The translations under genes and the position numbers were made by a program. 64,000 bases of DNA from positions 26,872 to 90,871 of the forward strand of contig CAMXCT020002664.1 of NCBI GenBank assembly GCA_947184155.2. Direction: 5' to 3'. Source of the stretch: Cladocopium goreaui. Its lineage: Eukaryota > Sar > Dinophyceae > Suessiales > Symbiodiniaceae. This document shows, in pieces, positions 94 to 29,529 of the stretch (the stretch's first letter is position 1; each line of letters starts with the position of its first letter). The notes under the pieces are model-generated. The model was not told the DNA's origin, did not search any database, and saw nothing but the letters and a program-made list of their open reading frames with translations.

Positions 94-489
94 TTAGAAG
101 AGAGAGCGAAAACATGCAAGCTCTGTATAGCTTCGCTGAACAAATACTCTTGCCACTCGGACTGTGGAGGAATCCGTGATCGTTATGCCCTCCAGACAGA
201 GCTGGTCGAGCAAGTGATCATCTATAAAGTTGATGTGCTCTTCCGTCAGGGAAAATTCGCACGGAGTGCGCTGTACCAAGCCATTGGAGAGCAGAATATA
301 TTCTTGGTAACGTGCGGCATCGAGTCCACTTGCTGCAACCGTTGCTGTGCTGGCTGTCCATACTTCAGCATCGCGGGATCGCAGTATAAGTATTACAAGC
401 TCAAGATTCTGTCCAATAATACTTTCGGCTGGCCGTTCTTCAGCTGAAACTGCCGCTAGCTCCCCATCAACTGCATCAAGGTGCTTCAT
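94..489 (-). CDS. Hypothetical protein, 131 codons
   Basis: An ATG-started open frame on the minus strand, of the same sense and composition as the helicase-bearing unit to its right. The product is mixed and acidic with no motif I recognise; no signal peptide or membrane segment is evident. It sits in sequence flanking element L and may be part of an older, decayed unit of the same kind. The overlapping plus-strand frame is shorter and looks less protein-like. Whether it is expressed is unknown. Confidence 0.3.
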   Translation of the reverse strand: MKHLDAVDGELAAVSAEERPAESIIGQNLELVILILRSRDAEVWTASTATVAASGLDAARYQEYILLSNGLVQRTPCEFSLTEEHINFIDDHLLDQLCLEGITITDSSTVRVARVFVQRSYTELACFRSLF

Positions 490-750
490 GTCCAGGAGTA
501 AATCTAGTATCTTGAGTCCACTTTGTCAACCCTTATACACTAGGTAACTAGGCCGTTTTCCAGAGCCGTCAGTGGGAAAAAACTCAGGGAAATGAGCTAG
601 AGAATCTTCTAGAGCAACACCTGCACGCTAGTGATGCACAACTTGAACATAAACGAGAAAGGGGGGTGGCAGTAGGGGGAGAGGGTACTTATAGTACTCC
701 GGGGAACAGGCCATGATTCAAACTAAACTAAACAAAAAGGGGGCATCTAC

Positions 751-805
751 TACCTGACAGGTGCAACCCGACACGTCTACGGTCAGAGAGACACCGTGTC
801 AGGTA
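751..805 (+). other. Two-tier hairpin, copy A
   Basis: Outer arms TACCTGACA-GGTG (751-763) pair with CACC-g-TGTCAGGTA (792-805), leaving one bulged G. Inside is a smaller hairpin, CCGAC / loop ACGTCTACG / GTCAG (768-786), with one mismatch. A run of G residues precedes it (739-743). It belongs to a family of at least nine related structures in this window with differing but still-pairing stems. The interval 490-1077 has no convincing gene and holds little else. Confidence 0.6.
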
Positions 806-1077
806 GTTCCTAGAGTTAAAAACTTGAATAGTTATACTTGTGCCATTGGTGCACTAGGCTTATATTAGGATCCTGATAACATTACCCAGGTGAAAGTGGG
901 TCAATCTGAAATTCAAGCGTGTCAACTTCATAGCTGCTGCGTTTCGAGCCCAAACTGTTTTGAGAATGAAATAGCTGCAGGCTGACTCTGCATGTTGAAG
1001 TAGCAGTAGACTAGCGCAGCACTAGTGATGTTCTATGTTGCATGATCAGATTGTCACACTCATCTTCTGCTCATTTT

Positions 1078-1920
1078 TCACAGTAGAACTACCCTTGGAG
1101 GCAGCAGCTCACTGGTGGAGTCACTCACCACCGCAGTAGGTGGATCCTGCATGAGGATCTGAACACGCACATGCGGTTGGAGTTCTCTAACGATATCTCT
1201 GAGTAGGGTGCTTTGGGCCACCGAGACGACAGCAGTATCTACTCCGTCAGAGACTTCCGTCCATGTCCTGATGTTCCAAGGTCTATTAACTCGTAGTAGC
1301 GCAAAGGTTAACTCAACCAGAGATGAGACGGGCGCAGCAAGCGCATCTGTATCCATGTAACCTCCCAAGCTGGCCGAGATGAGGACAGTCCTGACCACAA
1401 TTCGAAATGGGAGAGCGTCGAGAGGGACAGGGTATCTGCCAGAACCATCAGTTAAGGAATTTGAACCTGCGGGAATCAAGAAAAGCCGGTTAATCCAGAC
1501 TCCTCTGTCTGCCGGGCTACAGAAAGTTGCCAATCGTACAATGTCATGATGTGTCTCTGCCATCGCTATAAGGAGCTGATGGGTGATAAATTGACTCGTG
1601 CGTTCCACTTGCATGAGGTCTCTGTCAAGTGTGCTGTACAGCAGCTGTAACCAAGATGTCTCGTCCGGAAATAAGATGACAAGACCACTCTGCAGAAGCT
1701 TGACGGTACGGCGCAGGTCTCTTATTGTAGTGGTCAATTCCTGGGCTGCTTCCAGGCCATGCATAAGCACTCTGACTGACGATGGTATCTGATGACGATC
1801 ATGTCTGAAGCGCGCATGGGCCATGAGGCTTGCAACCGAGGTTGTGCTGTAATGTTTGCTGCATGTTTCTAGGGGCAGGGGGGAGAAGGAGTAGTCAGGT
1901 TGGAACAGAAAGCCATTCAC
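1078..1920 (-). CDS. Hypothetical protein, 280 codons
   Basis: ATG-started minus-strand frame of 280 codons with no recognisable domain. The composition is that of a soluble protein, with leucine-rich helical stretches around residues 45-110 and a hydrophobic beta-like segment near residues 165-200. It lies outside element L but has the same strand and composition as L's genes. The stretch between it and the next frame (1921-2250) shows nothing I recognise. The single long frame in a region with few others argues that it is or was coding. Confidence 0.35.
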   Translation of the reverse strand: MNGFLFQPDYSFSPLPLETCSKHYSTTSVASLMAHARFRHDRHQIPSSVRVLMHGLEAAQELTTTIRDLRRTVKLLQSGLVILFPDETSWLQLLYSTLDRDLMQVERTSQFITHQLLIAMAETHHDIVRLATFCSPADRGVWINRLFLIPAGSNSLTDGSGRYPVPLDALPFRIVVRTVLISASLGGYMDTDALAAPVSSLVELTFALLRVNRPWNIRTWTEVSDGVDTAVVSVAQSTLLRDIVRELQPHVRVQILMQDPPTAVVSDSTSELLPPRVVLL

Positions 1921-2250: not shown

Positions 2251-2569
2251 TTACCCCGCAAACAGCGCCGCATAGGCTTCACTGAGCATCTGCCAACTCT
2301 GCTGTACCTGATAACTGGCTCTGTTTGCTTCATGGATCACGTCATTGTGCTGCTTCTGCAAAAGGGTAATCCTTTCACGGAGGTGGAATAATCTTTCTTC
2401 CTCATTGGCATTGTTGGGGAATTTCTCCGCAATAGCATCGCGGCAGGTTTGGGATTGCCGAAAATCAAAACTCGACCGATCATCCTCGTGAATCGCTCGG
2501 TTGATTCTTGTGCGATCTGTGAGAGCAATTCCGTCTGCCTGGGGGGCATATACCTTGATGCGGTTACCC
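2251..2569 (-). CDS. Hypothetical coiled-coil ORF, interrupted by element L
   Basis: The open frame encodes a charged helical segment rich in E, R and Q in heptad-like spacing, ending just after residues AYAALFAG. The frame continues upstream into the tail of element L, where the A8 tract is read as lysines. That N-terminal part is therefore chimeric, and the genuine sequence should start at or before 2569. Function unknown. The adjoining 2551-2569 is the proposed target-site duplication, so this ORF probably belongs to the locus into which L inserted. Confidence 0.3.
2551..2569. repeat. Proposed target-site duplication of element L, left copy
   Basis: TACCTTGATGCGGTTACCC lies directly against the T8 run (A8 on the minus strand) that ends element L. 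The near match TACCTCGATGCGGTACCC at 16419-16436 differs by one substitution and one missing base. Position directly at the A tail, and a length of 18-19 bp, are what target-primed reverse transcription produces. Confidence 0.5.
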
Positions 2570-2577
2570 TTTTTTTT

Positions 2578-2930
2578 CCTCCGGTTTGGCCGATGTCGCA
2601 CTAGGCTCGGTCCTTACAATTGCGTAAGCAATGAAAAGCAGTAATGTACAAGGACACGTGTGGTCCAAAAGCTTTGGCAAATCACGAAACGACAAACAAA
2701 ACAAAACAACAAAACCACCACAACCAAAAACGACCCGCAAATCCCCCAGCCAGATTTGCGTTTCGCCTCAAAGCAAGACAGCGAAGCAACAAAGAACGGG
2801 GCAGGGCCCAACAAAAACAAAAACGCATTCAGATTTGCCTTAGATACAGTGACCTTAGCCACCGTATCAAACTCAAAAACATGCAAACTAATTATCCATT
2901 GCGGCAGTGCGTGAAATATAGTACATGATC
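2578..2930 (-). other. Structured 3' domain of element L
   Basis: In element sense this ends with a tail containing GGACCGAGCC and CGGCC before GGAGG and A8. It contains a closing stem (GGCAAATC 2676-2683 with GATTTGCC 2832-2839), an inner hairpin (CGCAAATC 2736-2743 with GATTTGCG 2753-2760, loop CCCCAGCCA on this strand) and a third hairpin (2843-2868) that pairs in RNA sense only with G-U wobbles. The same layout is found in copy R (19589-19876). Its likely role is recognition by the LINE-type reverse transcriptase. Confidence 0.55.
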
Positions 2931-5179
2931 GCCCAGAATGTCTCACCTGAGAACAGATAAGAGAATCCAGTGTTGCAGGCAGACTGATGTGTAGCACGAC
3001 AGAGGCCGCCTGTATGGACGTCTTGTCAATATAGCCACGCCCGCATCGCTGCTGTTCATCCTGCATCGTTCAGCGTACGCAAGTCAGTCTGTTCCAGTCA
3101 ATATACACCGCCGCAAGGGATTGTGATCTATTGCCCCCCCTAGGTGGGGAGGAGAGGACTGACGGCCTGTAAGACATGCCAGATGGTGTGAGCCCTCACA
3201 GGAACCGTCATATAGCAAAGGGCCCAAGACCCGAATGGGCAGTGGGTAAAAAGGTGGCTGAAAAAGCCTGACCGGCACTATACGGCCATTACAGACAGAC
3301 GAAGATTCTGACCATAGCATGGGCTCGTGAGCACAACCAGTATGCTACTGCCGACATTTAAGCAAAAGTTGCATTCGCATTGCAGTCGAACTCGTCCCCC
3401 TAAGCTATGAAGGTTGAAATGGTTCGCTGCGCCAGCACCAGATTCTCTGACAGGAGTCACTAGGCGTCATCGTCCCAGCAAGAGCCTGCGAAGAGGACCA
3501 GATGCACCGTATGTTAGCAGTGTATTCCAGACCAGGCCACTCTCCCACCGAGTGAGCCATCTGCCAAGGCACTACAGAACATCCGCACAACGAACCATGT
3601 GGGCAGGCTTTGCTGCACGCGGGCGCACCGGACTGAACTGCAGGAAGCTCAACTGGACAGCGCCAGTAAAGCTCACTGCAGTGCAGCCTAGTCCATGGCT
3701 CTACCGGGAATCTACCGCCCCTCTCGGAACAAAGGCAGAAACAAAACAAAGGGAGAAGGGCCCTCCCCAATACGAAGCCGAAGAAGAAGCCACATGAGAA
3801 AACTAACCAAATTCAAAATGAATTCAATGGGAGGAAAAGGGGGGGCGGTGAAAAGCTACCCCACCTCGGACGAATCCTTAGTCACAACCAGATGAGGCCA
3901 ATGTAGCCGAGGTGAAACGACAGGGCTATTATGCAGGGCGGTATCCTCGGTATCCAGGCAAAAGAGGAAACAAACACTACCAACCAACCAACCAACAAGA
4001 AACCTGCCATCAAGGGGGGGAAGCAGAAAGAGGGGGGCGGCCAAAGCACTACACACACCACACCACAAACCACACAGAAGAAGAGAGGAGAGGAGCCAGG
4101 AGGCAGCAGAGGACAGAGGGAGAACGTGACACACACGCACCAGAAGGGGTACGAACGTGCCTTAGCGGAGTCCAAAAAGGGGCCAAGGATCATACAATGA
4201 TGAATACCTCAGTGAGGGAGCACACAGCACCCCAACAACACAGGAAGCATGGTGTAGAGGGAAAAGATCCCCACACAGGGCCAAAGGCCTTTGTTGCCAT
4301 GAGACACAATGAAGAGGGGAGACAATGCGCCACAACACTCCACGCACAGAGGCAAGGCAACCAGGCCGTCGCCGGAAGCAACGATACCCAGAGGGAGGGA
4401 CCAGTAAAACCTGGGCCAAGGCGCCAAAGAGGACCATCCGAGGGGGAGGGGGGGCCACGTCAGGCAGGGAACAAATAAACAAAAACAGACCCAGAATACA
4501 AGGCACCAACACCTAAGGTAGCTCAGCTAAGGGCAAAAACTAGGGAGCAATAAACGAATTCAAATACCTTAACTAGTGGGAAGGGTGGGAGAGTGGTTGT
4601 CTCGTCAATACTAAGTCTGGGAATAATAACATCAATTTCGTCACCCATCTATGATTGTCAGGCAAAGGCTGCGAGAGCACGCGCCAGTGCAATAGGCTTC
4701 ATGGTGGAAGAGACCTTAGTATAATCTAAGCTCTCGACTGGACAGCACATTGAAAACACCAGTGCAAAGGTAACCCATACTGCCCGATCTGTTACACCTG
4801 AGCTGGCACTCACACCAACTACAAATGAGTGTGGCTACCAACTGTTTGAGTGGTCTGAATAGGTAGGGGCCTGGCATGCTCAGCACGATGAACCTGACAA
4901 TTATAAATGAGGAAGAGCTGAGTCCCCTGCTGCCTACCGGTGCACCTGTCACGTCTTTGGACAGACACCCCGGTATGGACAGTAACCTTAAGTGGAAATG
5001 ACGAAAGACCAAATAGAAAAGTAAGCCAACTCCCACCAACATTGTTGATGAAGCAAAAGCCACATATTGCGTGAGGGACACCGCGGAGTGAAACAGAAAA
5101 GTGGGGAAAAGAAGAGGAGAGAAGGGATGGACACAAAAAGGGTATAAGTGATGCAAACTGGGGTGAGCAAGGGATCATG
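2931..5179 (-). other. Long noncoding 3' region of element L
   Basis: No convincing ORF lies between the stop of the 400-codon ORF and the structured tail. The stretch aligns in inverted orientation with 17292-19560 at many landmarks, including a CCCTGTGTGGGG-type hairpin near 4265-4300 and the two-tier hairpin at 4935-4975. The strand is A-rich with several G runs between 3840 and 4460. Apparent frames here are low-complexity and differ between copies L and R, which argues against coding. Confidence 0.5.
4935..4975 (+). other. Two-tier hairpin, copy B
   Basis: TACC-GGTG (4935-4942) pairs with CACC-cc-GGTA (4966-4975), and inside CTGTC (4946-4950) pairs with GACAG (4960-4964) around loop ACGTCTTTG. 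The equivalent in copy R (17484-17527) has paired replacements in the outer stem, AGTG with CACT in place of GGTG with CACC. It lies about 2.36 kb from the element's 3' end in both copies. Confidence 0.65.
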
Positions 5180-6382
5180 TCATACCTCTCGTGAATAATG
5201 CTTTTTATCTGATGTAATGGTGTCGTTCCATTCGTTGGTGAGCCCAAACGAAACTGGGTTCATTCTTTGTTGATCAATAGCACGCTGCAGGAGCGCTCGG
5301 ATCGCCCTTTGATGTTCGTCCAGGTCTGTCGGAGGAACCCTCCTGCGGACTTTCCTGTCTGGGAAGTTTCGTTCCCGCAGGTTGGTTTGCAAGGCATGTC
5401 CCGCTACATAAACTGCAGGTTGCTGGAACAAGACGCGCTCTGCAAATCTGTGGAGATGCACTGTCCACTCAGCAAACATATGGCTGTGCGACAGTTGATT
5501 CCTGAGTCGCGCTTCCGTTTGATGGAGGCTCCCATTGGTATGCCACAATCGCAAAAGACTGTAGTTGGAAGGCCAATCAAGTGGGCACAGTGTGGCTGTT
5601 TCCTTCCACTTCTCGGGTGTGAGCCCAGTTTGAGAGGGAATGATAATTTCCAGAGTAGTGCGATTCGGTCCCAGTGGTTGGAGACCTCGCATCATGTACG
5701 GTTCAACGAGCCCTGCTGTATATCCATGGATGAGCTCCTGGAAACATCCAGCCATTTGAAAGTCTTCATCCAAACCAAGGCGAAAACCAGGCATGTTTTT
5801 GGCAGCAAATTTAACTGCCTGGAGCAACTGCTTTGCTCCCTCCACCGGAGTCTCGTCGCAGGAACGTTTCGGACACGCGATGTTAATTGCTTGTGGTTTC
5901 TGCGCATTCTCAGGAGCATTCTCAGGAGCATTCTCGAGAAGTTTGGGAGCAATTTTGCTGGCCCAGCTGGCCGGGAACCATGCCAGTAGGGCAGAGGCAC
6001 CACTCGTAAGGTCCACTAGCCCATTCAGGCGTCGATGCGGTCGATCTGTGACCAGGACTTTAACTGGGCCACTCGGCGCTCGACTCCGGTTCACCTCAGA
6101 GCTCTCTCGGGCCGAGCCAATGAGTTCAGACAGGATGGGCCGAAACCAGTACGTGGCATACAGCAAACATTCAGTTTCTGGAGTCACCGTGGAATCAGCC
6201 AATCTCATCAGCGAGCTCAACGCCTGGGCGAGCTTCTCTGCCAAGCGAATTGTGAGAGCCCTTGCCGCCTGCAGGAGGACATCCTCCACCCTGGCAATTT
6301 GCCCGCGTAGCCAAAGTTCACAGGCCACACTCAGCAAGATGCGCGCAAACTTTTCTTGGATGGCAGTCAACGACAACGTCAA
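5180..6382 (-). CDS. Conserved 3'-most ORF of element L, 400 codons
   Basis: Unknown function and no motif I recognise. The N-terminal third is helical and leucine-rich. A short three-fold repeat of ENAP (near 5905-5945) separates it from a C-terminal domain of about 230 residues containing conserved CPLDWPSNYSLL, MFAEWTVH and DKRR-like basic segments. The C-terminal 250 residues recur in copy R at roughly five of six positions, with many of the base differences synonymous, which suggests past selection on the protein. The frame begins with TTG overlapping the TGA of the preceding acidic ORF (sequence ATTGA), so it may be reached by reinitiation or frameshift. The stop is followed by 2.6 kb of noncoding sequence. 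Confidence 0.6.
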   Translation of the reverse strand: MTLSLTAIQEKFARILLSVACELWLRGQIARVEDVLLQAARALTIRLAEKLAQALSSLMRLADSTVTPETECLLYATYWFRPILSELIGSARESSEVNRSRAPSGPVKVLVTDRPHRRLNGLVDLTSGASALLAWFPASWASKIAPKLLENAPENAPENAQKPQAINIACPKRSCDETPVEGAKQLLQAVKFAAKNMPGFRLGLDEDFQMAGCFQELIHGYTAGLVEPYMMRGLQPLGPNRTTLEIIIPSQTGLTPEKWKETATLCPLDWPSNYSLLRLWHTNGSLHQTEARLRNQLSHSHMFAEWTVHLHRFAERVLFQQPAVYVAGHALQTNLRERNFPDRKVRRRVPPTDLDEHQRAIRALLQRAIDQQRMNPVSFGLTNEWNDTITSDKKHYSREV

Positions 6383-6636
6383 TCTTGCCTGTAGCCATAA
6401 CGGTGAATTAGGATTGCTAGCTTGTCAGCTGCACTCGCGATCTCATCTTCAGAGGGATCTTCCGCTGCATCAGGTATGGGTGGACACCATGCAACTGTAG
6501 GGTCTTCTGGATCACTCTCGTCATCGGTAGAGGCTGCTTCCTCATCCGAGGAGGGGTCATTCACTGTGTCTCCTGCACCCTCGGGGCTTGCGAGTTTCAT
6601 AGACCATGGATCAATCTGGCGATCCAATGTGTCCAA
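6379..6636 (-). CDS. Acidic linker ORF, 85 codons
   Basis: A strongly acidic, serine-rich segment (SSDEEAASTDDESDPEDP) followed by a helical end. Its TGA overlaps the next frame. It is probably a linker or tail between the helicase C-terminus and the 400-codon ORF rather than an independent protein. ATG start at 6634-6636. Confidence 0.35.
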   Translation of the reverse strand: MDTLDRQIDPWSMKLASPEGAGDTVNDPSSDEEAASTDDESDPEDPTVAWCPPIPDAAEDPSEDEIASAADKLAILIHRYGYRQD

Positions 6637-7099
6637 GAGGTCCGGTTGCAGCCGATGGGCATCGAAATAATGAATACCCGGTATTGCGACGAGTTGCCGA
6701 TCCTATATACCCACGTGAAAGAAGACCTTGTGGCCTCGATGTCGATGAACAAGTGCTGGGGACCCATTATAGGCTGCACACAGCCAGAGAGGAGATCTGT
6801 AACCATCAGCAGCATAACCATAAGCAGCATAACCATACAAGTATTCACGATCGATCGAGCAGGCTGGTCGTCAGCACATGGTCACGTGTGCGAGACTCTA
6901 GCGCTGCAAGGACATCAGGCGGAAGACGTAACTTGTCTCTGCATGCCACAACCAACCGATGTCGTCGCCACGCTCGCATGCCATTGATGGACACAATCAT
7001 GGCAATAGCAAGAGGGGGTTTGTCTTGGGAAATAAAAGGTGCCCCTAATCCCCATTCCATTATAGCAATTTTTGTCGCTGGGGTAGGTTGTAGGGCCAT
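6597..7099 (-). pseudogene. Helicase C-terminal remnant in two frames
   Basis: Two overlapping frames (7099-6845 and 6848-6597) carry what looks like the continuation of the helicase C-terminal region: one with a VSINGMRAWRRH-like segment, the next with GPQHLFIDIEATR. Neither has motifs that would identify it alone. The frame relation to 6915-7478 and to the acidic ORF requires at least two shifts, consistent with decay. Between 6785 and 6845 there is a short tandem repeat of a 12-14-bp unit (ATCAGCAGCATAACC-like). Confidence 0.3.
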
Positions 7100-7478
7100 G
7101 GTACTGGATGTCTCGGTCTTTCAGTGTGAAGTATCCATAATGGTACACTTCCAGTGTCTGGGCCATGCCAATCATGCCTGCCATATCAAGAGGCAAGACA
7201 ATATAGGCATGTTCAATGGCTCTTGTGAGCGCTACAGTTGCTCTCCCATAGCAGTCTTCACGCTCGTCTGCTGTTGCATCTCTGCGTCCTCCACTGAGAA
7301 ACCCACAGCCTGTTTGAACAATGACCGCAATGCGTGCTGTTGCCCCCACCGCAGAGGAAGTGGTGGAAACTCTCAGCCCACCATACCACGTAGACTGGAA
7401 GCCATGTTGGAGTAGCAAGTTGTGCACCGCAGTACGATTACACAAGACAAGCAGCTGCGAGGTCGCTCCCTGTTGCAA
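6915..7478 (-). pseudogene. SF1 helicase, RecA2 domain with motifs V and VI
   Basis: This frame encodes the end of an Upf1/Dna2-like SF1 helicase. A VSTTSSAVGATARIAVIVQTG stretch occupies the place of motif V, and TVALTRAIEHAYIVL is a good motif VI with the arginine that contacts ATP in this family. It overlaps the preceding frame (7438-7743) by 40 bases. The segment after motif VI contains MAGMIGMAQTLEVYHYG, then loses recognisable homology. Frame changes relative to the ATPase half point to mutation, though introns or recoding cannot be excluded. Confidence 0.5.
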
Positions 7479-7743
7479 GTTGCGATAATAAATTCTTCAG
7501 ATAGGTGCAGAAAGCAACGACGTCCTCAACAGCAGCTCTTAAATCTTTAGGTGCATTCCACAGTACTGTCCGGAAACCTCCTTGTGTCACAGTGGACTCA
7601 TGTGGCACGAAGTGTCCAATGTAGATGTGATTGGGCTCGTGGAGGACTAACTCAGGATAGCGAACTGCAACGATAGCTTGGTAAGTCAGCATTAAGACCC
7701 GTGAGCTGTTAGGGAGAATGATACCCACCGGTGAGGACCACAT
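7438..7743 (-). pseudogene. SF1 helicase, middle fragment
   Basis: Bridges the motif III frame and the motif V/VI frame. It contains a beta-strand pattern (RVLMLTYQAIVAVRYPELVL) and a helix-rich stretch ending LKNLLSQL. No catalytic motif is visible here, but the order and continuity across the 7692-7743 and 7438-7478 overlaps support one ancestral helicase gene broken by single-base shifts. Confidence 0.4.
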
Positions 7744-8276
7744 AGCCCGGCTGCTTCAAGGGTTGTGGTACACTCAGGTACTCCAAACTCCTCTGGTGCT
7801 GTGGCAATCAGCAGGACTGCTAGAGCTGCTGCAATTAGGCTGCTGTGTGCATCCAGCTGGCACGAGATTCGGCGGTGAAACATCCGCTCTAGGGCGACAG
7901 GCAGCTCGTAGTCTTGCAGAGTGGATGTCCATGGGCCACTATGCGGCTTGTTTGCAAGTCTCAGCAGACTAAAGAGATCTGACTCCGGATCTTGGCTCGC
8001 ATCAGGCCAAAGCTGAGCGACAAGTGCTGCCATTCGTGCCGGTGGAAGATAGTCTCCTGGCCTATCAAGCGCTCTGAGCCCTAACGGCCGTTGCAACAGT
8101 TTGCGTCGATTGGCAGCCGCTACTCGGCCTTTTGACAGCCCTCCTGGAGTTTGCCTGTGATCGCCAATGAAGACAGTGAGAGTTGGTTGTTGAATGGCAG
8201 CGAGAGCTGCGATCTTATGGTAGTTGCCATACTGTTGGCTTTCGTCCATGAAAGCAGCCAGGTGCGAGAGATCCAA
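7692..8276 (-). pseudogene. SF1 helicase, motifs II and III
   Basis: Carries the Walker B/DExxQ box as AFMDESQQYG (residues about 8-17) and motif III as FIGDHRQTPGG (about 36-46), close to the GDxxQLPP of Upf1-like helicases. It joins the Walker A frame at about 8290 through a one-base shift in a T4 run (CACTTTTGG). The later part (DYELPVALERMFHRRI) resembles the inter-RecA segment. The intact motifs suggest recent function of the family even if this copy is broken. Confidence 0.55.
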
Positions 8277-9244
8277 TGGCCAAAAGTGGAATAGCGCATC
8301 GCCATTTCAGCCGTGGCTGAGCCACCTGTTGCAATGAGCACATTCTTGTACGCGATGATTTTATTAGGGTCACTGCACCGGACGTCAATTTTAGAGGCAT
8401 ACGCTTCTCCTTTACCTTCCTCCATGCGACCAATTAGCCTACCGAAGCTCCTGATTGTGGGGGGCGCGAGATCACTTAATTGATCCGCAAGTGCTTTGGC
8501 AGCTACATTTTCTTTCGTATAGACGATCGCAACAAAGTCCTTGAGTTCACAGCTCAGTGCAATGAGCAAGACCGCAAGGGACCGCGTTTTGCCAGCACCA
8601 AAGACCCCTGCAATACATAAGTCAGATCTGCCTGTCAGAATAGCCAGCAACAGTGCAATTGAGACCGTTAAGACATGTCCATCACCGTGGGCTGCTAGAG
8701 GCAGGAGGTACTCACGGTAATAACTGTCATGGGCCCCATCCATCGAGATCGTGGCTGGTGTCAGGAAGCGGCTCAAGATTCTGACTAGTGCATCGGTCAG
8801 CTTCGTTTTGCGCTCGCTGGCCATGCGGCGAACAGGTATATGCGGCTGTACGATGCCCATGGCCAATGGTAGGCGCGACTGGTTGGCTTGTGCAAACACT
8901 AAGAGTTCATGGCGGCTGCGTGTGTCACCCAGGAAGGCTAGCTCTTCCCACACTACGGCCATAGACACGTGTTCTTCAATGGGTTTCGGCCAGTCCTGTG
9001 CAGGATCAAAGTAACTCATTGTTTTGAGATACTGGTCCAAAAGTCGTCCACAAAACGTCCGAGCAATGGGTAGTGAGACGAGTACAAGCTCTAGCAACTT
9101 CGGGGCAATGCGTTTGATTGCTCGCTGAGCAGGATTCTTGCTGGTTCCGCTGTGCATCACCTTTTCATGTACCAGTAGTATAACACACCGCTGCTGAGTG
9201 TCTGGCAACTGGAGTACCCCTAGTAGCGCTCTGCCCGCCATCAC
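8120..9244 (-). CDS. SF1 (Upf1/Dna2-like) helicase, N-terminal half with Walker A
   Basis: About 210 residues of unknown N-terminal sequence precede a Walker A motif, GVFGAGKTRS (about residues 210-219), and a motif Ia region, FVAIVYTKENVAAKAL. Helicase homology ends at MRYSTFGHW near 8290, after which this frame is out of register and the next frame carries motif II. It starts 18 bases after the stop of the 817-codon ORF, so the two are tightly packed. Family knowledge: SF1B helicases unwind RNA or DNA 5' to 3'. A role in the element's life cycle is inference. Confidence 0.6.
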   Translation of the reverse strand: MMAGRALLGVLQLPDTQQRCVILLVHEKVMHSGTSKNPAQRAIKRIAPKLLELVLVSLPIARTFCGRLLDQYLKTMSYFDPAQDWPKPIEEHVSMAVVWEELAFLGDTRSRHELLVFAQANQSRLPLAMGIVQPHIPVRRMASERKTKLTDALVRILSRFLTPATISMDGAHDSYYREYLLPLAAHGDGHVLTVSIALLLAILTGRSDLCIAGVFGAGKTRSLAVLLIALSCELKDFVAIVYTKENVAAKALADQLSDLAPPTIRSFGRLIGRMEEGKGEAYASKIDVRCSDPNKIIAYKNVLIATGGSATAEMAMRYSTFGHWISRTWLLSWTKANSMATTIRSQLSLPFNNQLSLSSLAITGKLQEGCQKAE

Positions 9245-9261
9245 GTTGGCTTCCAGGTTGC

Positions 9262-11715
9262 CTAGATTCCCAGCTTCACAGAGATCACGTGTTCCGAAGG
9301 TGCACTAAAGAGTAGGAGAGGGGCACCTTCAGTATGTAGGTGAATGACATGAAAACCAGCATACGCCTCATATTGGTAGGTGACCTGCAACCGCGTTCCA
9401 GTTTGTCCTCGCTTCTTCTGCTGAGCTAGTTCTACACTGACCCAGGGCTGAAGGTGTTGGAGCTGCCGTCCCGCATGATAGGCGTCTAGTTGCGGAAGCA
9501 CCATGTCCAGTAGGAAGATGAGGGTTCTTAATGAAAAACCACGCAGGAATTCCGCCAGTAAGTTGCGAACCAGCAACCCTCCCTCATCGTGGGATCCTCC
9601 TGGTGTGGGAATCATCGCAATCAGAGCTGCTTGTAGTTCAGCTTCCGTATCAGGCTGACCATCCCGAATGTCCCGGCCGACAATGGGTACTGTTTGTAGT
9701 TCAGTGTTCCCTTCTCCAGCTGCTACTAACAGAGTGCTTAGAGTCGTCTTGAGGTGCACAGGAAAGTCAAAGCTAACCCATGAGAGTACTCGCAGCAATC
9801 CTTCACACCGTACCCCGTGTGGAATGACCTGAGGGGTGGTGATTTGTAATCTCTGAACTTCATGGACCCCTTCATCAAGGTCAATGAAGAGCAGGTGGCC
9901 ATATGAGTGTTTGGCACGCCCACTCCATGTGGGGTGCCCTTCTATAAGAACCACCTGATAGTTGAATTCTGTCAGAGAGTCAGGTTTCCACACACATAGC
10001 CGGTCTTCCAGGCAGTGCACCAGAGTGACTCTGCGTTCGCCAGTGGCAAGTCGCATCATCTCCGGCGGCGTCGCAATCGCAGCAACTTTAGTGAGGCCTG
10101 GGAATGCAGCGAAATCACTCAGGATCTCGTGAACTGCAAGGCCCGTGTAGGACCCTGCCGAGAATCCATAAATGTTGATGTCCCTGACACCTCCTGTATC
10201 CGCTGTAGTGACTAAGTGAGGAAAACATGACTTCAGGAAAAGATGTTTACCTTGCGGATGGTAACAACGAAAGATCTGCATGATTGCTGTTGACCAGGTC
10301 GGGTGTGGTGGTCTGGCATGGGCTGGCCGGATATGCGCGGCCTCAATGAGACGAATCGCTCTCGTGAGCAACAGTTGGTGATCGGAGAAATGTTCAGGGA
10401 GGAAGTCTCGCCAAGCTGTCCATCCTTCTGCAGTGGAGAGTAGCTGGTAGATCGCATATTCGTGCACTGTTTTGGTGAGGCCCAATTGGGTGACATGTGC
10501 TTCCCAATTATCTGTCATAGCGAGCGATGGGCCATACACCTTTGTTTGTGCCTGATTTTGTAGGAAAATATCATAGTCGCGTTCGCCACTGAGTAGGCCA
10601 CCTCCTAATCCACTGCAGTGCACTTCAAGGGGTCGGTCTTGCATTGGGGCGTCATCTTGCCAGACTTCTGAAAGGGAAAAGACCCAGGATGCCCACTCGT
10701 CAGAGCCCTTGAGTGCTGTGGGCAGCGCAGCAGCAGGTGTTCTTCCAATGTAGTTTTGTTTGGACAATTCTCCAACATCTATGGTCTGCTCATTGACAGT
10801 GACGTCCCACTTAGCCATCTCTCTGAAAGGTAACGGAAGACCAAACTTCAGGGGAGCTGCTTGCTGCAGCGATGTACATGAGGGTTCCGGTTGTTCCTTT
10901 CGTTGCCACAGTCCACACAGCAAAATTAGTTGAGCTTGGGAAAGTGGAGGAGGAGGCACTTTGGCATGCAGTCGCAGACCAACCACTGGAAGGAAATTGT
11001 GATGTAGCCATTGAGGCTTCCATTCTTGTGTACCAAATAAAGCTGCAGCCAAAGGCAACCAGCCATATTGGGCGAGGTCAGCGAGACTGCCAGGCATTCT
11101 TTTCTTGGCATTGGTGCCAAACCCATGCAGAATAACAGGCCGCATGTAATGTGGCTCGATTTCCATGGCCTGGTACATCTTGTCTCCTGGTAGCACTCGT
11201 ACACTGACCTCACCTGGCAGCAGGCTAAGGGTCGGAAGGGCACCCTGCTCGTAGGCAGGCCGAGCCCATTTATGGAAGTTTGGTTGTCTGCCTTGGTATC
11301 CATCAAGGATCTTCCGTAAATGGCCATGGCGCGGCCAGACTCCAGAGGCTGGGACAGGAAAAGTGACTAATCCAGACCACTGGCCTAACACACTCCACGC
11401 ATGGCACCAATCTGCAGTAACACGAGTGGACGTGCCAAGCAGAGGAGAGCCAAGTAATCCACTAGCTACTGCCTGCTCAACATCTGCAGGTGGATACGTG
11501 GTAGCAAGGTAGGCTTCAACATGCCCGTGGTAAGCACGAGTAATGACGTGGGCTATTTCATCAGGATCCGTGTCCGAGTCCTCCAAGGCAGTGACAGGTA
11601 CAGGGCTCTCATGACCCGAAGCTAATACAATGACCAGACCCGCATTGATTTCAGTGAATGCCTCACTCACAAGGATGACTCCTTTGGGCCTGCACGCACT
11701 GGCAGTTTCATCCAC
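9262..11715 (-). CDS. 817-residue protein with alpha/beta-hydrolase-like domain
   Basis: The longest intact frame in element L, ATG at 11713-11715. The N-terminal 240 residues appear to continue the glycosyltransferase-like domain of the upstream ORF (segments WCHAWSVLGQW and VILHGFGTNAKKRMPG). From about residue 500, DINIYGFSAGSYTGLAVHEI is a GxSxG nucleophile elbow of the alpha/beta-hydrolase fold, followed at plausible spacing by an acid (HCLEDRLCVW, about 568) and a histidine in GHLLFIDLDEG or the preceding KHSYGH (about 600). It overlaps the upstream ORF by 48 bases in the -1 frame. The substrate is unknown. The hydrolase call is good; the link to the upstream domain is tentative. Confidence 0.55.
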   Translation of the reverse strand: MDETASACRPKGVILVSEAFTEINAGLVIVLASGHESPVPVTALEDSDTDPDEIAHVITRAYHGHVEAYLATTYPPADVEQAVASGLLGSPLLGTSTRVTADWCHAWSVLGQWSGLVTFPVPASGVWPRHGHLRKILDGYQGRQPNFHKWARPAYEQGALPTLSLLPGEVSVRVLPGDKMYQAMEIEPHYMRPVILHGFGTNAKKRMPGSLADLAQYGWLPLAAALFGTQEWKPQWLHHNFLPVVGLRLHAKVPPPPLSQAQLILLCGLWQRKEQPEPSCTSLQQAAPLKFGLPLPFREMAKWDVTVNEQTIDVGELSKQNYIGRTPAAALPTALKGSDEWASWVFSLSEVWQDDAPMQDRPLEVHCSGLGGGLLSGERDYDIFLQNQAQTKVYGPSLAMTDNWEAHVTQLGLTKTVHEYAIYQLLSTAEGWTAWRDFLPEHFSDHQLLLTRAIRLIEAAHIRPAHARPPHPTWSTAIMQIFRCYHPQGKHLFLKSCFPHLVTTADTGGVRDINIYGFSAGSYTGLAVHEILSDFAAFPGLTKVAAIATPPEMMRLATGERRVTLVHCLEDRLCVWKPDSLTEFNYQVVLIEGHPTWSGRAKHSYGHLLFIDLDEGVHEVQRLQITTPQVIPHGVRCEGLLRVLSWVSFDFPVHLKTTLSTLLVAAGEGNTELQTVPIVGRDIRDGQPDTEAELQAALIAMIPTPGGSHDEGGLLVRNLLAEFLRGFSLRTLIFLLDMVLPQLDAYHAGRQLQHLQPWVSVELAQQKKRGQTGTRLQVTYQYEAYAGFHVIHLHTEGAPLLLFSAPSEHVISVKLGI

Positions 11716-12674
11716 GTCTGATTTGTCCTTCCGGGTAGGTTTGGTTGACCCAGCCGGGGAAGAGTCATAGACGTCGCCCGCCGAGACATGCGGGGACTCG
11801 GGTCTGGCGAATCACCATAGTCAACCTCGTCTGCCAAATTGGCACCATAGGTGAGGGGAGGGGCTCGTGGTGGGTCAGCTTTTCGGACAGCAAGATTGTC
11901 CGCACTGTGCGATCTAGATAGCTTCGATGGTGGACCAGGCTGCTGCATGTCCCTTCCCGTGTCAACAGAGCGCGCACGTTTGTGCGATGACGCAATGGGG
12001 CTTGACAGTTTGCTCTTTGCAACTTTGCTTGATGTAGCTGGTCGGGTTGGGTCAGTGCTCGCAAGCCAAAGTTCTCGTATCTCAAAGAGGGTCACTGGCA
12101 CACAATCGCTGTCAATCAGTGCAAAATTGATGGTCGGAAAGAGGAACACACAAGCATCAAGGATGAACGTTCCTGCCCATGTTGGGTGTACCTTATGAAG
12201 ACCAGTGTCAGCTGAGATGTGAACAAAGACAACTGTGGTGAGTTCTCCATATGGGCCAACATAGCGTAACCGTTCTTTCCACCAGGCAGCGACCATTGGC
12301 CAATGGCTGAGTCCATGCACGGATTTGACCTCGTCCGATTGCAAATCACGATTGTCCGTCACCAAATACACGGTGTGGTAAGGCAAGAAAGCAGAGCTTT
12401 GACTAACCAGCCATCGGTACAACTTGTGCCAGTCAGGTCCAGGTGGAGTTTCAATCCCGTTTACCATTGCAATTTCGTAGTCATGCCGGTCAGGTTCAGC
12501 TGTCTTCTTATGGGGGTCTCCAAATCGCCAGTGCTGTTCGATGGATACATTCAGCCCGTACTCAGTCGAAATGCTCTTGTGCTGTTCGAGTGCGTAAAGC
12601 AGATCCAAGAAGCTAATTGCAGGGTTCTTTGCGTACCAGGACTTCACAACTTGTTCCCTGGAAAGCAGAGACAT
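11667..12674 (-). CDS. Glycosyltransferase-like ORF
   Basis: I chose the ATG at 12672-12674; the frame is open 35 codons further upstream, but those codons read through hairpin D. Around residue 186, FALIDSDCVPVTLFEIREL matches the metal-binding DxD region and flanking strands of GT-A fold glycosyltransferases, preceded by TWAGTFILDACVFLF. A basic, serine- and proline-rich tail (about residues 215-336) follows. The 3' end overlaps the 817-codon ORF by 48 bases in a -1 relation, so the two may form one product by frameshifting or may once have been fused. The GT call rests on one motif and general layout. Confidence 0.4.
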   Translation of the reverse strand: MSLLSREQVVKSWYAKNPAISFLDLLYALEQHKSISTEYGLNVSIEQHWRFGDPHKKTAEPDRHDYEIAMVNGIETPPGPDWHKLYRWLVSQSSAFLPYHTVYLVTDNRDLQSDEVKSVHGLSHWPMVAAWWKERLRYVGPYGELTTVVFVHISADTGLHKVHPTWAGTFILDACVFLFPTINFALIDSDCVPVTLFEIRELWLASTDPTRPATSSKVAKSKLSSPIASSHKRARSVDTGRDMQQPGPPSKLSRSHSADNLAVRKADPPRAPPLTYGANLADEVDYGDSPDPSPRMSRRATSMTLPRLGQPNLPGRTNQTWMKLPVRAGPKESSL

Positions 12675-12739
12675 CTCACTGTTCAGTTCCTGTGTAGCTG
12701 ATTTGGGTGTAAAGGTTATAAAGGGGGAGAAATGAGGGG

Positions 12740-12783
12740 GTGTTGAGAATCCTGACACGTCTCTGGTCAGAAGACTCAAGCAC
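12740..12783 (+). other. Two-tier hairpin, copy D (array unit 1)
   Basis: Outer GTG-TTGAG pairs with CTCAA-g-CAC, the bulged G again on the 3' side. Inner CTGAC (12752-12756) pairs with GTCAG (12766-12770) around loop ACGTCTCTG. A GGGGG run precedes it. It overlaps only the dubious upstream extension of the GT-like ORF. Confidence 0.65.
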
Positions 12784-12899
12784 TCTTGTCAGTACCGAAC
12801 CACAAAGTCGAAGTTAGTAACGAAGGAACCCCTAAACCAAGACCAACAAAACAGAAAGCGACCAGAACAAACCCAAAACAAAAGGGGGGGAGGGAGGAA

Positions 12900-12943
12900 G
12901 TGTTGAAAAACCTGACACGTCTTTGGCCAGGCAGTTCAAGCAC
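12900..12943 (+). other. Two-tier hairpin, copy E (array unit 2)
   Basis: GTG-TTGAA pairs with TTCAA-g-CAC. Inner CTGAC (12912-12916) faces GCCAG (12926-12930), one A-C mismatch on this strand but G-U in element sense, around loop ACGTCTTTG. Compared with copy D, the outer pair G-C has become A-T. Confidence 0.65.
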
Positions 12944-13068
12944 CTTAACAGGAAACAAGAGGAAACAAGCACAAAACAAGAACAAAAGACAACACAGCAC
13001 AAATGAAGCGGCGCCCAAGGCGGTGAGGGAGTTAAGTGCAATGGGGGGGAAAAAGCGGGACGAGAAAA

Positions 13069-13107
13069 GCTGGAAGCCCTGACAGTCTTCAGTCAGAAAA
13101 TCCAGGC
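13069..13107 (+). other. Two-tier hairpin, copy F (array unit 3)
   Basis: G-CTGGA pairs with TCCAG-g-C, with the conserved bulged G. Inner CTGAC (13079-13083) pairs with GTCAG (13092-13096) around an eight-base loop AGTCTTCA. All five outer-stem base pairs nearest the loop still pair despite a sequence different from copies D and E. Confidence 0.6.
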
Positions 13108-13223
13108 ACAAGAGAAAAGAGGAATCAGAAAGGGAAAAGGAGGGAGCAGAGCACAAGGACGAGTCAAAGAACAAAAGAGAGGAAGAGAGAGCAAATCAAA
13201 AAGAGGGGGGGTGGAGAGAGGTG

Positions 13224-13260
13224 CTGGTAGCCCTGGCACGTCTTGAGCCAGAAAAACCAG
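13224..13260 (+). other. Two-tier hairpin, copy G (array unit 4)
   Basis: CTGGT (13224-13228) pairs with ACCAG (13256-13260). Inner CTGGC (13233-13237) pairs with GCCAG (13247-13251) around loop ACGTCTTGA. The inner stem shows a compensated change, A to G on one side and T to C on the other, relative to copy D. Confidence 0.6.
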
Positions 13261-13719
13261 AAGCCAAAGGGAAAGGAGAAAGAGGAGTCGGGTAAGAGGA
13301 AATTACGCAACAAGGGGCAATATCGTGGAGTAAGGTCCCAGCACACGACCGATCAAGGTGTAATCTGTAGTATAGACGAAACAAGCCTGTAAGTAATACC
13401 CTTAGCCCAATTGCCGGAGAGGTTTGTTATATCTATCCCTTACCGGGATAAGGAGGCACTATATCTAACCCCTTTCTTAAACTCAGCTGAAGCAGCAGGT
13501 CTATCTACTGCTGTGCATTTGAGCCAATAGGGTCGCAGGGAGTGGTAACTACATGTAACAGCGCACACGATACTTGTGTAGTTAAGGACATCATTGTTCA
13601 AAGGAGATGTGACTGATGTGTACTGCTCTTTCTTTTTTCCGGTATCACAAGCAGGCCCGGAGTCAGCCTTTACCTAGTGCCAGCCTCTCACTGGGAAAGT
13701 GTCCGTCTGGAGCGCAAGC

Positions 13720-14601
13720 TTAGTCGACTTGATGCAGGAATGTCTCTTCCCGGTTGAGCTCAGGGGGTGATTGCAGCTCATTTCGTATTCGTACTGGTAA
13801 ATACAATCCATCGAGTATTCTGCGCCATCGGAACGTAGTAAAGTTTGTCTGTCGAGACTGCTTTTCGATGATATGTTGATATTTCCACACAGTTTGCTTC
13901 ATGATAGTGGTGGCCCTCTCTGTAAGAGCTGTGGGCTTCACTCGTGCAAGAGAAGATTGCTCTCCCCTCACCACTTCTGTAGCGTTACTGAATTGCTGTA
14001 GCATGTCAATGACCGTGTCTTCTGCACTCTGCGCAGCAGCAGCTTGTACAGCGTTGAAGACTTCTTTTCGGGCGGCGTGACCGTGCCATTGCAGTGAATG
14101 GCAAAGCACGGAGGCAATCGCAATCTCCTGCCACGGGTCCGCTCGCGCGTCTAGGAGCAGCTGTACATTTGTCCTGTGCCGATGGAGGACAGCAAGGAAC
14201 AGTGGTGGTAGCGCTCCTTTCACGGGCATGACCGAGGCACCAGCCTCGAGCAAAGTTTGAACAAGCTGTGAGCTGCCCAATTCAACTGCTAATTCCAACA
14301 TAGTGGTAGGTTGCGTTTTGGGCGGGAGAATATTGGGGTCAGCTTGGGCTTGTAACAGTAGATAAGTTAAGCTGGCCCCATGTCGAGGGAAGCAGTGGCC
14401 AGCACTAGGCTGGTAAGCATACGGATCAGTAGAATGATCTCGAAGGATAGCAGAGGCTACGAGTGTGCTGGTATGCCCTCCCTCCGTCGTCATGCCCGTA
14501 AGGCCTACTCCCTTGCCAAGGAGATAGCTTAAATCCATCACGTCTTTGTGATAAATGGCTGTCATAAGGTCTTGATATTGCTGTGCTGATGGGACTTGCA
14601 T
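13720..14601 (-). CDS. Ankyrin-repeat protein, 293 codons
   Basis: Residues about 74-160 form two to three ankyrin repeats: HGASLTYLLLQAQADPN, then TMLELAVELGSSQLVQTLLEAGAS, then PPLFLAVLHRHRTNVQLLLDARADP. The remainder is helical and unassigned, ending in a basic stretch. ATG at 14599-14601. The first 175 bases overlap ORF A in another frame. Ankyrin repeats mediate protein binding; the partner is unknown. It is the second ORF of element L in transcript order. Confidence 0.65.
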   Translation of the reverse strand: MQVPSAQQYQDLMTAIYHKDVMDLSYLLGKGVGLTGMTTEGGHTSTLVASAILRDHSTDPYAYQPSAGHCFPRHGASLTYLLLQAQADPNILPPKTQPTTMLELAVELGSSQLVQTLLEAGASVMPVKGALPPLFLAVLHRHRTNVQLLLDARADPWQEIAIASVLCHSLQWHGHAARKEVFNAVQAAAAQSAEDTVIDMLQQFSNATEVVRGEQSSLARVKPTALTERATTIMKQTVWKYQHIIEKQSRQTNFTTFRWRRILDGLYLPVRIRNELQSPPELNREETFLHQVD

Positions 14602-15307
14602 TGATTGGCTTCATGGCAGTTTTGTGTTCAAAGCCAGTCTTGAAAGTTTCGTGAGCTGCTGAACTACAGCGGGATTCTTTATTCAGGGCTATGGTTTTGT
14701 CCGTCACCTTGCCTGAGCTATTGGTCAGATCAGTGAAGTACCAGCACGGTGTGCGATTTGCCAGGATATTATGTTCATGCATCCTGTCGACATAAAAATG
14801 ATTCAATTTCTCACTGTGTTGGTGGTTCGTGATGACGGCAAATCTTCTGGGGCTAACCCAGATCCATAGATCTTCCTGGAAGGACTGTGTGGCATAGAAG
14901 GGCCATATCTGTCGTCCTCCCATTTCCACAAAATAAAAGTTTGTGTAAATGTCATCGCTGGCCTCAGTGTCTATGTGACAGAAATCATGCGACAATTTGG
15001 CGGAACTGGACCCTGGATAGGCCCAGTCCGGCGGGTTCTTCATGCCGTCATTGATGATAATATTCCAGCACTCTCCATTAATGCACATTCTATATTCATG
15101 GAAAGACCACGCATGGAGCTGCTTGGTGTGCTCATAACAGCCATGCTGCCGGTAAACCTGGATGTCATCGTATTCCGTAATGTAGGACTCTTTGTCGCTT
15201 GGTACCTTTGGGCTCCCGGTGCAGGGCCACGCCAAAAAGGCGAAATCCACGCAGAAGCATGGCCCCCCGCAAGCACCAGGCGCATCCTGGGGCGGTACCC
15301 TTTCCAC
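14426..15307 (-). CDS. Unknown first ORF of element L (ORF A)
   Basis: The open frame starts at a GTG with no early in-frame ATG, so the true start may be upstream, internal or supplied by splicing. The plausible coding part is the first 240 residues, rich in W, Y, H and C (GCYEHTKQLHAWSFHEYRMC, ECWNIIINDG, FYFVEMGGRQIWPFY), suggesting a folded domain of beta type. I cannot name the family. The last 58 codons overlap the ankyrin ORF and look like an out-of-frame shadow. Confidence 0.4.
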   Translation of the reverse strand: MERVPPQDAPGACGGPCFCVDFAFLAWPCTGSPKVPSDKESYITEYDDIQVYRQHGCYEHTKQLHAWSFHEYRMCINGECWNIIINDGMKNPPDWAYPGSSSAKLSHDFCHIDTEASDDIYTNFYFVEMGGRQIWPFYATQSFQEDLWIWVSPRRFAVITNHQHSEKLNHFYVDRMHEHNILANRTPCWYFTDLTNSSGKVTDKTIALNKESRCSSAAHETFKTGFEHKTAMKPINASPISTAISRPYDSHLSQRRDGFKLSPWQGSRPYGHDDGGRAYQHTRSLCYPSRSFY

Positions 15308-16418
15308 ACCACGAGTCTCAGGTCAACCCAAGGAGAGTGGATCCACTCACCGAGTGACGTGGGAACCGAACCCATTCATTTCCACCAAGAATGTACAGCG
15401 TAAACCGTACACCCTGAATGGACGTGGAGACGGAACCCATTCATTTCACCCAAGATGATCACCACTCAATCCAAGGGACCAACTCATGATGCCCCCAAAG
15501 GTTCCCGGACTCCAGCGATTGCCGGAGAAGACGATCCAAGAAAGGAGTGGACCTTAGTCACCTTTTCAGTGACCCCAGTCCCTATGGAGCACAGCTCGGA
15601 CCTTAGAGCCAAAAACAAGATCCTCACTGTGGCCAGACTGTACATTGAGCCCACTCTCCCCGAAGGTTGAGAGTGAACCGGTCGGTGACCCAGTCGTTGC
15701 GATCCCATGTATCCCAGGGGGATACACCTGTCTTGCGACAGGACCCTAACACTGTTGGGGAGGAACCGACGGTCTTGTCCACCGTGAGCTTAGCTACCCA
15801 ACGATGAATATTAACCGTTAGCCAACGGGTTGCCCCGTTGATCTCTCCTCGAGACAAGTCCCCAAGTCTCTAAGAGGTTCACCGACCTTGCCTGTTCCCT
15901 CGTGTCATCATTGGGTGTTGCTACCCTAGACACAAGGTAAGGTGAGACCCGTCGGTCCCGTACCACGTGTGTACCGATCGGTCCGGGAGAACCCCGAGAT
16001 ACCGCACGATCACCCAAGGATGTGCGCAAACACAAACGAGGGTGTGACATGAGGAGCAACCCAACATGTCAACACACGCCGACTAGGGGGTACCAAGGTA
16101 CCGTGTTAATTCACGGTTCGTTAGGGACGGGGGCCTTCAGCAACTCCCCTGCGCTATATCGACAATTTAACGTCCCCTCGGACCCTCTCGGGTCCACCTC
16201 CCCCTGTTCTGAGCATGGTATTGGGGACCCCATCCCCCCTACCCACTCAGGTCGATGGTGTTCACTGTGAGCCTCAATATCGTTATTGCCAACAGCTGGG
16301 CCCCCTTGGTCATGCCCAGTCAGTGGGCGTGCCTTCAGCGTGACCTTATCACCGATCCAGTGCGCCATGGCTGCCCACCGGAGTGTACAAAGGTATGGCA
16401 GAAATAGGGCCCTAAGAG
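15308..16418 (-). other. 5' leader-like region of element L
   Basis: No convincing gene. It contains a direct repeat of a 26-28-base sequence (15368-15393 and 15432-15459, core GAACCCATTCATTT), many short palindromes, and a weak minus-strand frame (16371-16111). Composition is GC-richer than the 3' region. If the duplication at 16419-16436 is real, this is the 5' end of the retroposed transcript. Confidence 0.35.
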
Positions 16419-16436
16419 TACCTCGATGCGGTACCC
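16419..16436. repeat. Proposed target-site duplication of element L, right copy
   Basis: TACCTCGATGCGGTACCC matches 2551-2569 in the same orientation with one substitution and one base fewer. The match stops exactly where the left copy meets the A8 run. Confidence 0.45.
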
Positions 16437-16538: not shown

Positions 16539-17291
16539 TAGTGTGAGAATGCACAGAAACCTCAAGAAATCAACCTCACGTGCCCGAAACGTTCCTGTGA
16601 CGAGACTCCCGTGGAAGGAGAAAAACAGCTGCTCCAAGCAGTCAAATTTGTTGCTAAAAATTTGCCTGGTTTTCACCAGGGGGTGGATGAAGACTTTCAA
16701 ATGGCTGGAAGCTTCCAGGAGCTCATCAATGGGTACACCGCAGGGCTCGTTGAACCATGTATGATGCGAGGTCTCCAATCCCTCGGATCGAATCGTACTA
16801 CTCTGGAAGTGATCATTCCCTCTCCAGAAGGGCTTACCCCCGAAAAATGGAAAGAAACAGCCACACTGTGCCCACTTGACTGGCCTTCCAATTACAGTCT
16901 TTTACTATTGTGGCATATGAATGGGAGCCTTCATCAAACAGAGGCGCGTCTCAGGAAGCAACTGTCCCACAACCATATGTTTGCTGAGTGGACAGTCCAT
17001 CTCGACAGATTCGCGGAGCGAGTTTTATTCCAGCAGCCAGCAGTTTATATAGCGGAACATGCCTTGCAAACCAACCTGCGGGAACGAAATTTCCCTGATA
17101 GGCGAGTCCGCCGGAGGGTCCCTCCTGAGGATCTGGACGAACATCGAAGGGCGCTCAGAGCGCTTCATCAGCGTGCTATTGCCCAGCAAGAAGTGAACCC
17201 AGTTTCATTTGGGCTCACCAATGCATGGTATGATACCATTACAGCAGACAAAAAACACCATCTTGAACATTTCACGAGAGGTATGACATGA
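16539..17291 (+). CDS. 3' ORF of copy R, N-terminally truncated
   Basis: The frame is open from 16539, just after a TAG, and corresponds to the last 250 residues of the 400-codon ORF at 5180-6382, to which it is about five-sixths identical by eye. There is no proper start, so it is a truncated gene body. Conserved blocks include QLLQAVKF, MAGSFQELINGYTAGLVEP, TPEKWKETATLCPLDWPSNY and NFPDRRVRRRVPP. Many base differences from L are synonymous. The C-terminus differs, with a few extra residues before TGA. Confidence 0.55.
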
Positions 17292-19588: not shown

Positions 19589-19876
19589 ATACAGTGACTT
19601 ACGTCACTGTATCCTTGGCAAATCACTGAATGTTTGGTTTGGTTTTTGTTTGGGCCCGGCCCCGTTCTTTGTTGCTTCGCTGTTTTGCTTTTTGGCGAAA
19701 CGCAAATCTGGCTGGGGGATTTGCGGGTCGTTTTTGGTTGCGTTCTTTGTTGTTTGGTTTGTGTTGATGTGATGATTTGCCAGCGTTTTGGGACCACACG
19801 TGTCCTTTTTCTGAATGCTTTTCACCGCTTACTCAATTGTAAGGACCGTGCCTAGTGCGAATCGGCCAAACCGGAA
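19589..19876 (+). other. Structured 3' domain of copy R
   Basis: A ten-base hairpin (19589-19598 with 19603-19612) precedes a closing stem GGCAAATC (19617-19624) with GATTTGCC (19774-19781). Within it lie a GT-rich stretch and an inner hairpin CGCAAATC (19701-19708) / GATTTGCG (19718-19725). The tail has GGACCGTGCC and CGGCC and stops at CCGGAA, without A8. Confidence 0.55.
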
Positions 19877-20818: not shown

Positions 20819-20832
20819 TGGTAGCGGAGCTG
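20819..20832 (+). promoter_or_regulatory. Primer-binding site of E1
   Basis: TGGTAGCGGAGCTG follows the LTR end TACA with no spacer. TGGTAGCG is what complements the 3' end of an initiator-methionine type tRNA, the usual copia primer. The same string starts the leader of E5 and, inverted, E2. Confidence 0.75.
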
Positions 20833-20856
20833 CCTGCTTGCTGTGCGTAAGTAGGA

Positions 20857-29365: not shown

Positions 29366-29529
29366 GAGTGTCTTCATTGGTGCAAAGGCGAGGAAAGACT
29401 ATGAGCTGGTTGTTCATTGGATGGTGAACAACGGGACAATTCGTACTATATGTATTGACCTGTTAAGCTTGAGCGATACGTGCAGAAGTCTGGATGGGTT
29501 ACAGCTATACATGGAATGGAGTTCATCTC

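Follow-up and report, generated by a model that had tools for sequence, protein, structure and literature searches.

LINE retrotransposons are usually about 4–10 kb long, with one or two ORFs. R2 elements are short and site-specific, and Terminons attach at telomeres. The closest described element to the unit reported here is SymbioLINE-Dnmt, an element of Symbiodinium, and the present unit shares its plan in the upstream part: in the part of the source available to us, a methyltransferase ORF is followed by an endonuclease/RT ORF, copies are many and carry target duplications, the element has no poly-A tail and is CG-poor, and purifying selection is reported for the DNMT (de Mendoza et al. 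2018, PMC5890265). Great length is known from Terminons, Penelope-like giant retroelements of bdelloid rotifers that, in the accessible portion of their description, reach up to 40 kb and carry many ORFs, some of hydrolase type (PMC5408684). Here we analyze a 64,000-nt stretch of a Cladocopium goreaui contig (CAMXCT020002664.1, positions 26,872 to 90,871), hereafter the window. One segment of it very probably arose by target-primed reverse transcription from a giant multi-gene dinoflagellate non-LTR LINE of at least ~31.5 kb, of which it is a 5'-truncated copy.

A target duplication, an A8 tail and a 3' end common to its copies support the identification of window positions 2570–16418 (minus strand) as a retroposed unit of 13.85 kb, which contains one nested insert. 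A first-pass annotation made from the sequence alone had noted that the unit ends in A8 (2570–2577, minus strand) and that 19 bases recur at its far side, and both observations are real: the 19 nt beside the tail (2551–2569, minus strand) are repeated as 18 nt at 16419–16436 (minus strand), with one substitution and one base missing. The pair scores 13, a value reached by none of 59,761 random 28-mers of the window (best 12). The interruption of an ORF provides independent support. By tblastn, a 301-aa family ORF (from locus L053) aligns in two parts, residues 150–197 at 16561–16430 and residues 196–298 at 2568–2260, both on the minus strand; the 13.85-kb unit therefore interrupts that ORF, and the residues encoded twice are the target duplication. 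At the ends of the window copy, which is itself 5'-truncated, a search for direct repeats of ≥40 nt, such as LTRs would form, found none.

The interrupted ORF belongs to an older relative with further ORFs at 100–1848 (minus strand), where the 258-aa family ORF aligns at 1848–1081 (45%) and the 155-aa ORF at 492–100 (55%). The window copy is thus inserted into an older family member (45–73% protein identity), in the same orientation. The 3' part of another, divergent family member lies at 16544–19875 on the plus strand (80–83% DNA identity). The rest of the window holds other elements: two Copia-type elements (RVT_2) at 20201–30386 and 30551–41219, with terminal repeats ~99.5% and 97% identical, the first containing six tandem 69–75-bp repeats (23107–23535) and the second an inverted 240-bp piece of its own repeat (31724–31965 versus 41219–40979). 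Large ORFs at 55290–64000 match RVT_2 at 29.6 bits (cut-off 31.6) and probably belong to a third Copia-like element that continues past the window's end.

The ORFs named in the first-pass annotation are present in the window copy, all on the minus strand and split over several frames, and their labels fared differently. The ankyrin-repeat ORF (13720–14601) stands, with a Pfam Ank_2 match of 28.9 bits above the cut-off of 27.3. For the SF1-helicase-like part, which lies in several broken frames at 6918–9304, the AAA_19 matches of homologues P0004 and P0017 (E 8e-5 and 6.5e-4, short of the curated cut-off) point weakly to the proposed label, and no match was found among solved structures. The label of a GT-like ORF at 11667–12779 is dropped, as neither Pfam, PDB nor fold backs it. 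Fusions occur in homologues P0001 and P0004: P0001 joins the GT-called region to the hydrolase-like part, and hydrolase-like and helicase-like parts are likewise fused in a homologue. The model of P0001 has a mean pLDDT of 46, and its fold search was therefore set aside. The hydrolase-like ORF (9262–11715) has 47 homologues and a conserved GFSAGS motif, present in its consensus (A1), and gave no match in a Pfam search. A conserved C-terminal ORF of 400 codons (5180–6382) has 216 homologues at E ≤ 0.001; its structure model is of mean pLDDT 75.5 and pTM 0.80, and its fold has no clear match in the PDB, which does not make it new. An ORF at 14429–15322 is distantly related to the 301-aa ORF (23% identity, E 7.6e-8).

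We searched for copies in the 1.17-Gb assembly (6,202 contigs), in which the dinoflagellate spliced-leader sequence has 172 exact matches and its reversed control none; we therefore take the host to be a dinoflagellate. The hydrolase region was found at 40 scored places including the window, all at DNA identity ≥94% and the best 40 of 893 candidates. The 3' end falls at the same place, and carries A8–A11, in all six copies readable to the end (the window, C713, C5639, C1164, C710 and C779). Across the 20 end regions examined (10 copies), this end was found in four of the ten 3' regions and, on further reading, in one more; the remaining five are internal or without a match to the compared part of the window. 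One C710 3' end from these regions was added to the later comparison of 3' ends. The boundaries first proposed, 2570 and 16418, thus hold on the 3' side, but on the 5' side three copies (C1164, C710 and C779) run past 16418 with the same sequence, and the 256 bases upstream of 16418 are present at 40 scored places, the best 40. Position 16418 is accordingly ruled out as the element's 5' end and is a 5'-truncation point of this copy, not the end of the family. At least five different 5' ends were seen: 16418 in the window, the equivalent of 14981 in C713, and points further upstream in C1164, C779 and C710.

A check suggested at the outset, whether each copy has its own duplication beside the A tail, came out positive for two of the five copies with both flanks read. 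Besides the window, C713 is a 13.5-kb copy with a perfect 19-bp target duplication (19/19) after A9, inserted into a relative (80%) within its hydrolase ORF; in the longer copies C1164, C779 and C710 a duplication was looked for and none was found. Since duplications accompany only the 13.5- and 13.85-kb copies, the longest insertion proven as a single event is 13.85 kb. The original proposal that the whole 13.85 kb entered as one reverse transcript is therefore upheld as to retroposition, by the duplication, the A8 tail and the 3' end, with the qualification that the nested 1,049-bp insert may have arrived later than the unit.

This insert occupies 15196–16244 (minus strand). It is missing at this place in C1164, C710 and C779 and present at other sites (L051, L057, L058, L067, L068, L074, L075 and L019), and the occurrence of the same piece at other positions led us to drop an intron, with spliced and unspliced copies, in favor of a nested insert. 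It is a discrete piece without a target duplication, and 39 of its 40 scored genome matches span base 1 to base 1049. Its orientation is that of the host LINE in 11 of 11 places, counted among the fetched family loci only, with other hosts possible; this shared orientation is what a spliced or introner-like element would show.

Beyond 16418, an upstream walk in separate pieces recovered ORFs of 155, 258 and 301 aa, next ORFs of 144 and 135 aa, and still further upstream an ORF of 357 aa, together with a zinc-knuckle-like part followed by an RNase H-like one. The RT ORF (L076) matches RVT_1 at E 6.8e-10 (39.4 bits, cut-off 29.6) and is collinear with the rest of the unit, so that the first-pass remark that no RT was visible is true of the window copy but not of fuller copies. 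An endonuclease-like part has an Exo_endo_phos_2 match at E 0.11, below cut-off, and GDFN, LDRVL and SGHY motifs recognized by eye. Upstream of the RT ORF lies a methyltransferase-like ORF with SPCQD, ENAG and QRRR motifs, also recognized by eye; its PF00145 matches are weak (E 0.098, and 0.0057 for homologue P0077, all below cut-off), and none of the solved structures matched it. Methyltransferase-like, endonuclease-like and RNase H-like are thus names taken from motifs and sub-cut-off Pfam matches. A ubiquitin protease was considered for the ORF before the methyltransferase and rejected, as Pfam gave no match. The N-terminal ORF is the most upstream reached; even the outermost piece has matches at 40 places, the best 40, and the walk did not arrive at a 5' end.

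The RT also bears on the alternative raised in the first-pass annotation, an integrated large RNA-virus-like genome. One long ORF joining hydrolase-like and SF1-helicase-like parts would suit such a genome, as would a Viral_helicase1 match, at E 0.19 only; an RVT_1 reverse transcriptase within the unit disfavors it, the ends are LINE-like, and scans of viral contigs with patterns that reach close relatives only gave no confirmed relative. The viral origin has thus lost support, and we regard it as extremely unlikely.

To measure how the pieces of the proposed LINE are arranged, we used seven markers (N5, DNMT, RT, MID, UP256, HYD and 3' end), with 40 matches each and spacings taken on the same strand. 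Each marker list is limited to the best 40 out of between 204 and 1,843 first-look candidates, which makes a contig's absence from a list uninformative. Two partial 3'-end matches of 42 and one 100-bp MID match of 41 were dropped before counting, and the MID start in C1164 was shifted to the start of family sequence. Across many contigs the markers follow one another in a fixed order, all on the same strand, and their spacing varies little, with medians of 2009 bp from N5 to DNMT (29 pairs), 5012 from DNMT to RT (24 pairs), 6435 from RT to MID (16 pairs), 3633 from MID to UP256 (24 pairs), 5308 from UP256 to HYD (17 pairs) and 8890 from HYD to the 3' end (9 pairs). In the four steps checked for opposite-strand neighbors, these numbered 1, 1, 1 and 0. 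The spacings sum to ~31.3 kb, to which the last marker adds ~0.3 kb, giving about 31.5 kb as a lower bound. N5 and HYD are 22,253–22,377 bp apart in five of nine pairs, the other four measuring 24.5, 24.6, 30.9 and 31.6 kb; some excess spacings, of ~1.05–1.1 kb, correspond in length to the nested insert, and in C710, C1135 and C324 the insert was indeed seen at such places. Among the matches listed, only C747 has both end markers in one contig, 34.7 kb apart with insertions. In C1135 (~10140–12984; L077, L079), ~2.8 kb around the methyltransferase region is inverted; a twin-primed 5' end was considered and withdrawn, since the N-terminal ORF runs forward on the far side, which makes this an internal inversion, either real or an assembly fault.

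These spacings speak to whether the unit is one element or two, namely a normal-sized methyltransferase/RT LINE beside a separate large non-autonomous ankyrin/helicase retroposon that borrows the LINE's enzymes. As such a division would predict, the downstream part takes in the whole of both longest duplication-bearing copies (13.5 and 13.85 kb), and the available part of the SymbioLINE-Dnmt description reports a 3' UTR after ORF2 and leaves further ORFs unmentioned (PMC5890265). However, C1164, C779 and C710 are each truncated at a different point upstream of 16418 and share no boundary in that region, RT and MID lie 6.4 kb apart in nine of 16 pairs (further in the other seven), and C710 and C1135 match across the stretch from RT to downstream part. 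We consider two units unlikely.

Collinearity could also arise if the long copies came from segmental DNA duplication or tandem array amplification, only shorter pieces having been retroposed. The three long copies without a target duplication fit this, as do two head-to-tail copies 34.5 kb apart in C468. C4431 and C6026 agree in their spacings and may represent a single place entered two times, which on this account would make them duplicates of a single locus. Yet copies are scattered over many contigs, truncation points vary, and in the copies read the outside flanks differ while the 3' end and A tail stay constant; duplication at the DNA level is in our estimation very unlikely. A single retroposed LINE remains our preferred reading.

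The flanks of this LINE's copies offer a further pattern. Four of six known 3' flanks (those of the window, C713, C1164 and C779; L032, L038 and L083) lie inside older family members, with the orientation the same in four of four; in C710 and C5639, no older family member was found within the flank sequence examined. Either self-targeting or mere family abundance could account for this. Both flanks of C1164 are roughly collinear with the window's older relative, the upstream alignment being weak, and this would fit an insertion without duplication.

Hydrolase-region copies were also compared codon by codon. Across 30 copies cut out of the 40 matches, median dN/dS is 0.158 (435 non-independent pairs); a 16-nt deletion in the window copy puts its final few codons out of frame. 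That deletion is relative to 26 of 29 other copies; of the other three, one has 24 nt of gaps and two have alignments that end before the place. The frame is mostly intact, with an extra stop, counted beyond the stop at the window's frame end, in three of 30 copies, one base missing in three and larger gaps in one. The pattern suggests that the hydrolase-like ORF was under selection while the family spread.

From these pieces we can propose how the element is built and how it may move. From its 5' side it would comprise the N-terminal ORF, the cytosine-methyltransferase-like ORF, the endonuclease-like and RT ORF and the zinc-knuckle-like/RNase H-like part, and then several small ORFs, the ankyrin ORF, a long hydrolase-like/SF1-helicase-like/C-terminal ORF and a noncoding 3' region of ~2.6 kb that ends in A8–A11. 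The element's own RT would start at a nick, on the A tail, and copy an RNA of at least 31 kb; early stops in many copies would give the varied 5' truncations. The extra ORFs presumably serve the element's cycle: the helicase-like part might, at a guess, ease the passage of the RT along a very long, structured RNA, and the ankyrin and hydrolase-like parts might equally speculatively act in RNP assembly or membrane contact, a role proposed, in the accessible text, for hydrolase ORFs of other retroelements (PMC5408684). We put at about even the chances of the broader proposition, that target-primed reverse transcription allows a dinoflagellate LINE to move a polygenic cDNA exceeding 31 kb, that at least one of its roughly ten ORFs is selected, and that the LINE tends to land in relatives in the same orientation.

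If real, a LINE of at least 31 kb with methyltransferase-like, RNase H-like, ankyrin, hydrolase-like and helicase-like genes would push target-primed reverse transcription past its known limits and make it harder to separate retrotransposons from genomes of viral size. The presence of a helicase within the unit offers a testable idea for the copying of so long an RNA, and predicted helicase- or hydrolase-like proteins of such genomes can be transposon genes.

Set against solved structures, the RT ORF has its best matches in R2 proteins (E 9e-5 to 6e-4 over ~200 residues), a likeness drawn from sequence matches and not from a tree; unlike R2, the unit is far from short and its insertion sites vary. 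Terminons, so far as the available description goes, resemble it as very long retroelements with many ORFs, some of hydrolase type, but they use Athena (Penelope-like) RTs, whereas here an RVT_1 domain has an endonuclease-like part in front, and insertion is internal and leaves target duplications (PMC5408684). The initial impression that the unit fits no described retroelement does not hold for its upstream part, yet it does for the downstream ORFs: we did not find described, in one unit, ~20 kb of ORFs after the RT (ankyrin, GxSxG-hydrolase-like, SF1-helicase-like and conserved C-terminal). The open-licence literature yielded no published giant LINE or helicase- or ankyrin-bearing dinoflagellate LINE, which is no proof of its being unpublished, and the available part of the SymbioLINE-Dnmt paper mentions no such stretch and contains the words helicase and ankyrin zero times (PMC5890265). 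As far as that text extends, the two share a dinoflagellate host, a methyltransferase ORF that immediately precedes the endonuclease/RT ORF, target duplications, many copies and signs of purifying selection, reported on the DNMT there and measured on the hydrolase-like ORF here; they differ in that SymbioLINE-Dnmt is said to have no poly-A tail whereas the giant unit has A8–A11 in six of six copies. CpG observed/expected is 0.633 in the unit versus 0.599 in window 20001–64000, a reference itself full of retroelements against which there is no CG depletion. Given the A8–A11 tails and the absence of visible CG depletion, we therefore call the unit related to SymbioLINE-Dnmt rather than assigning it to that element.
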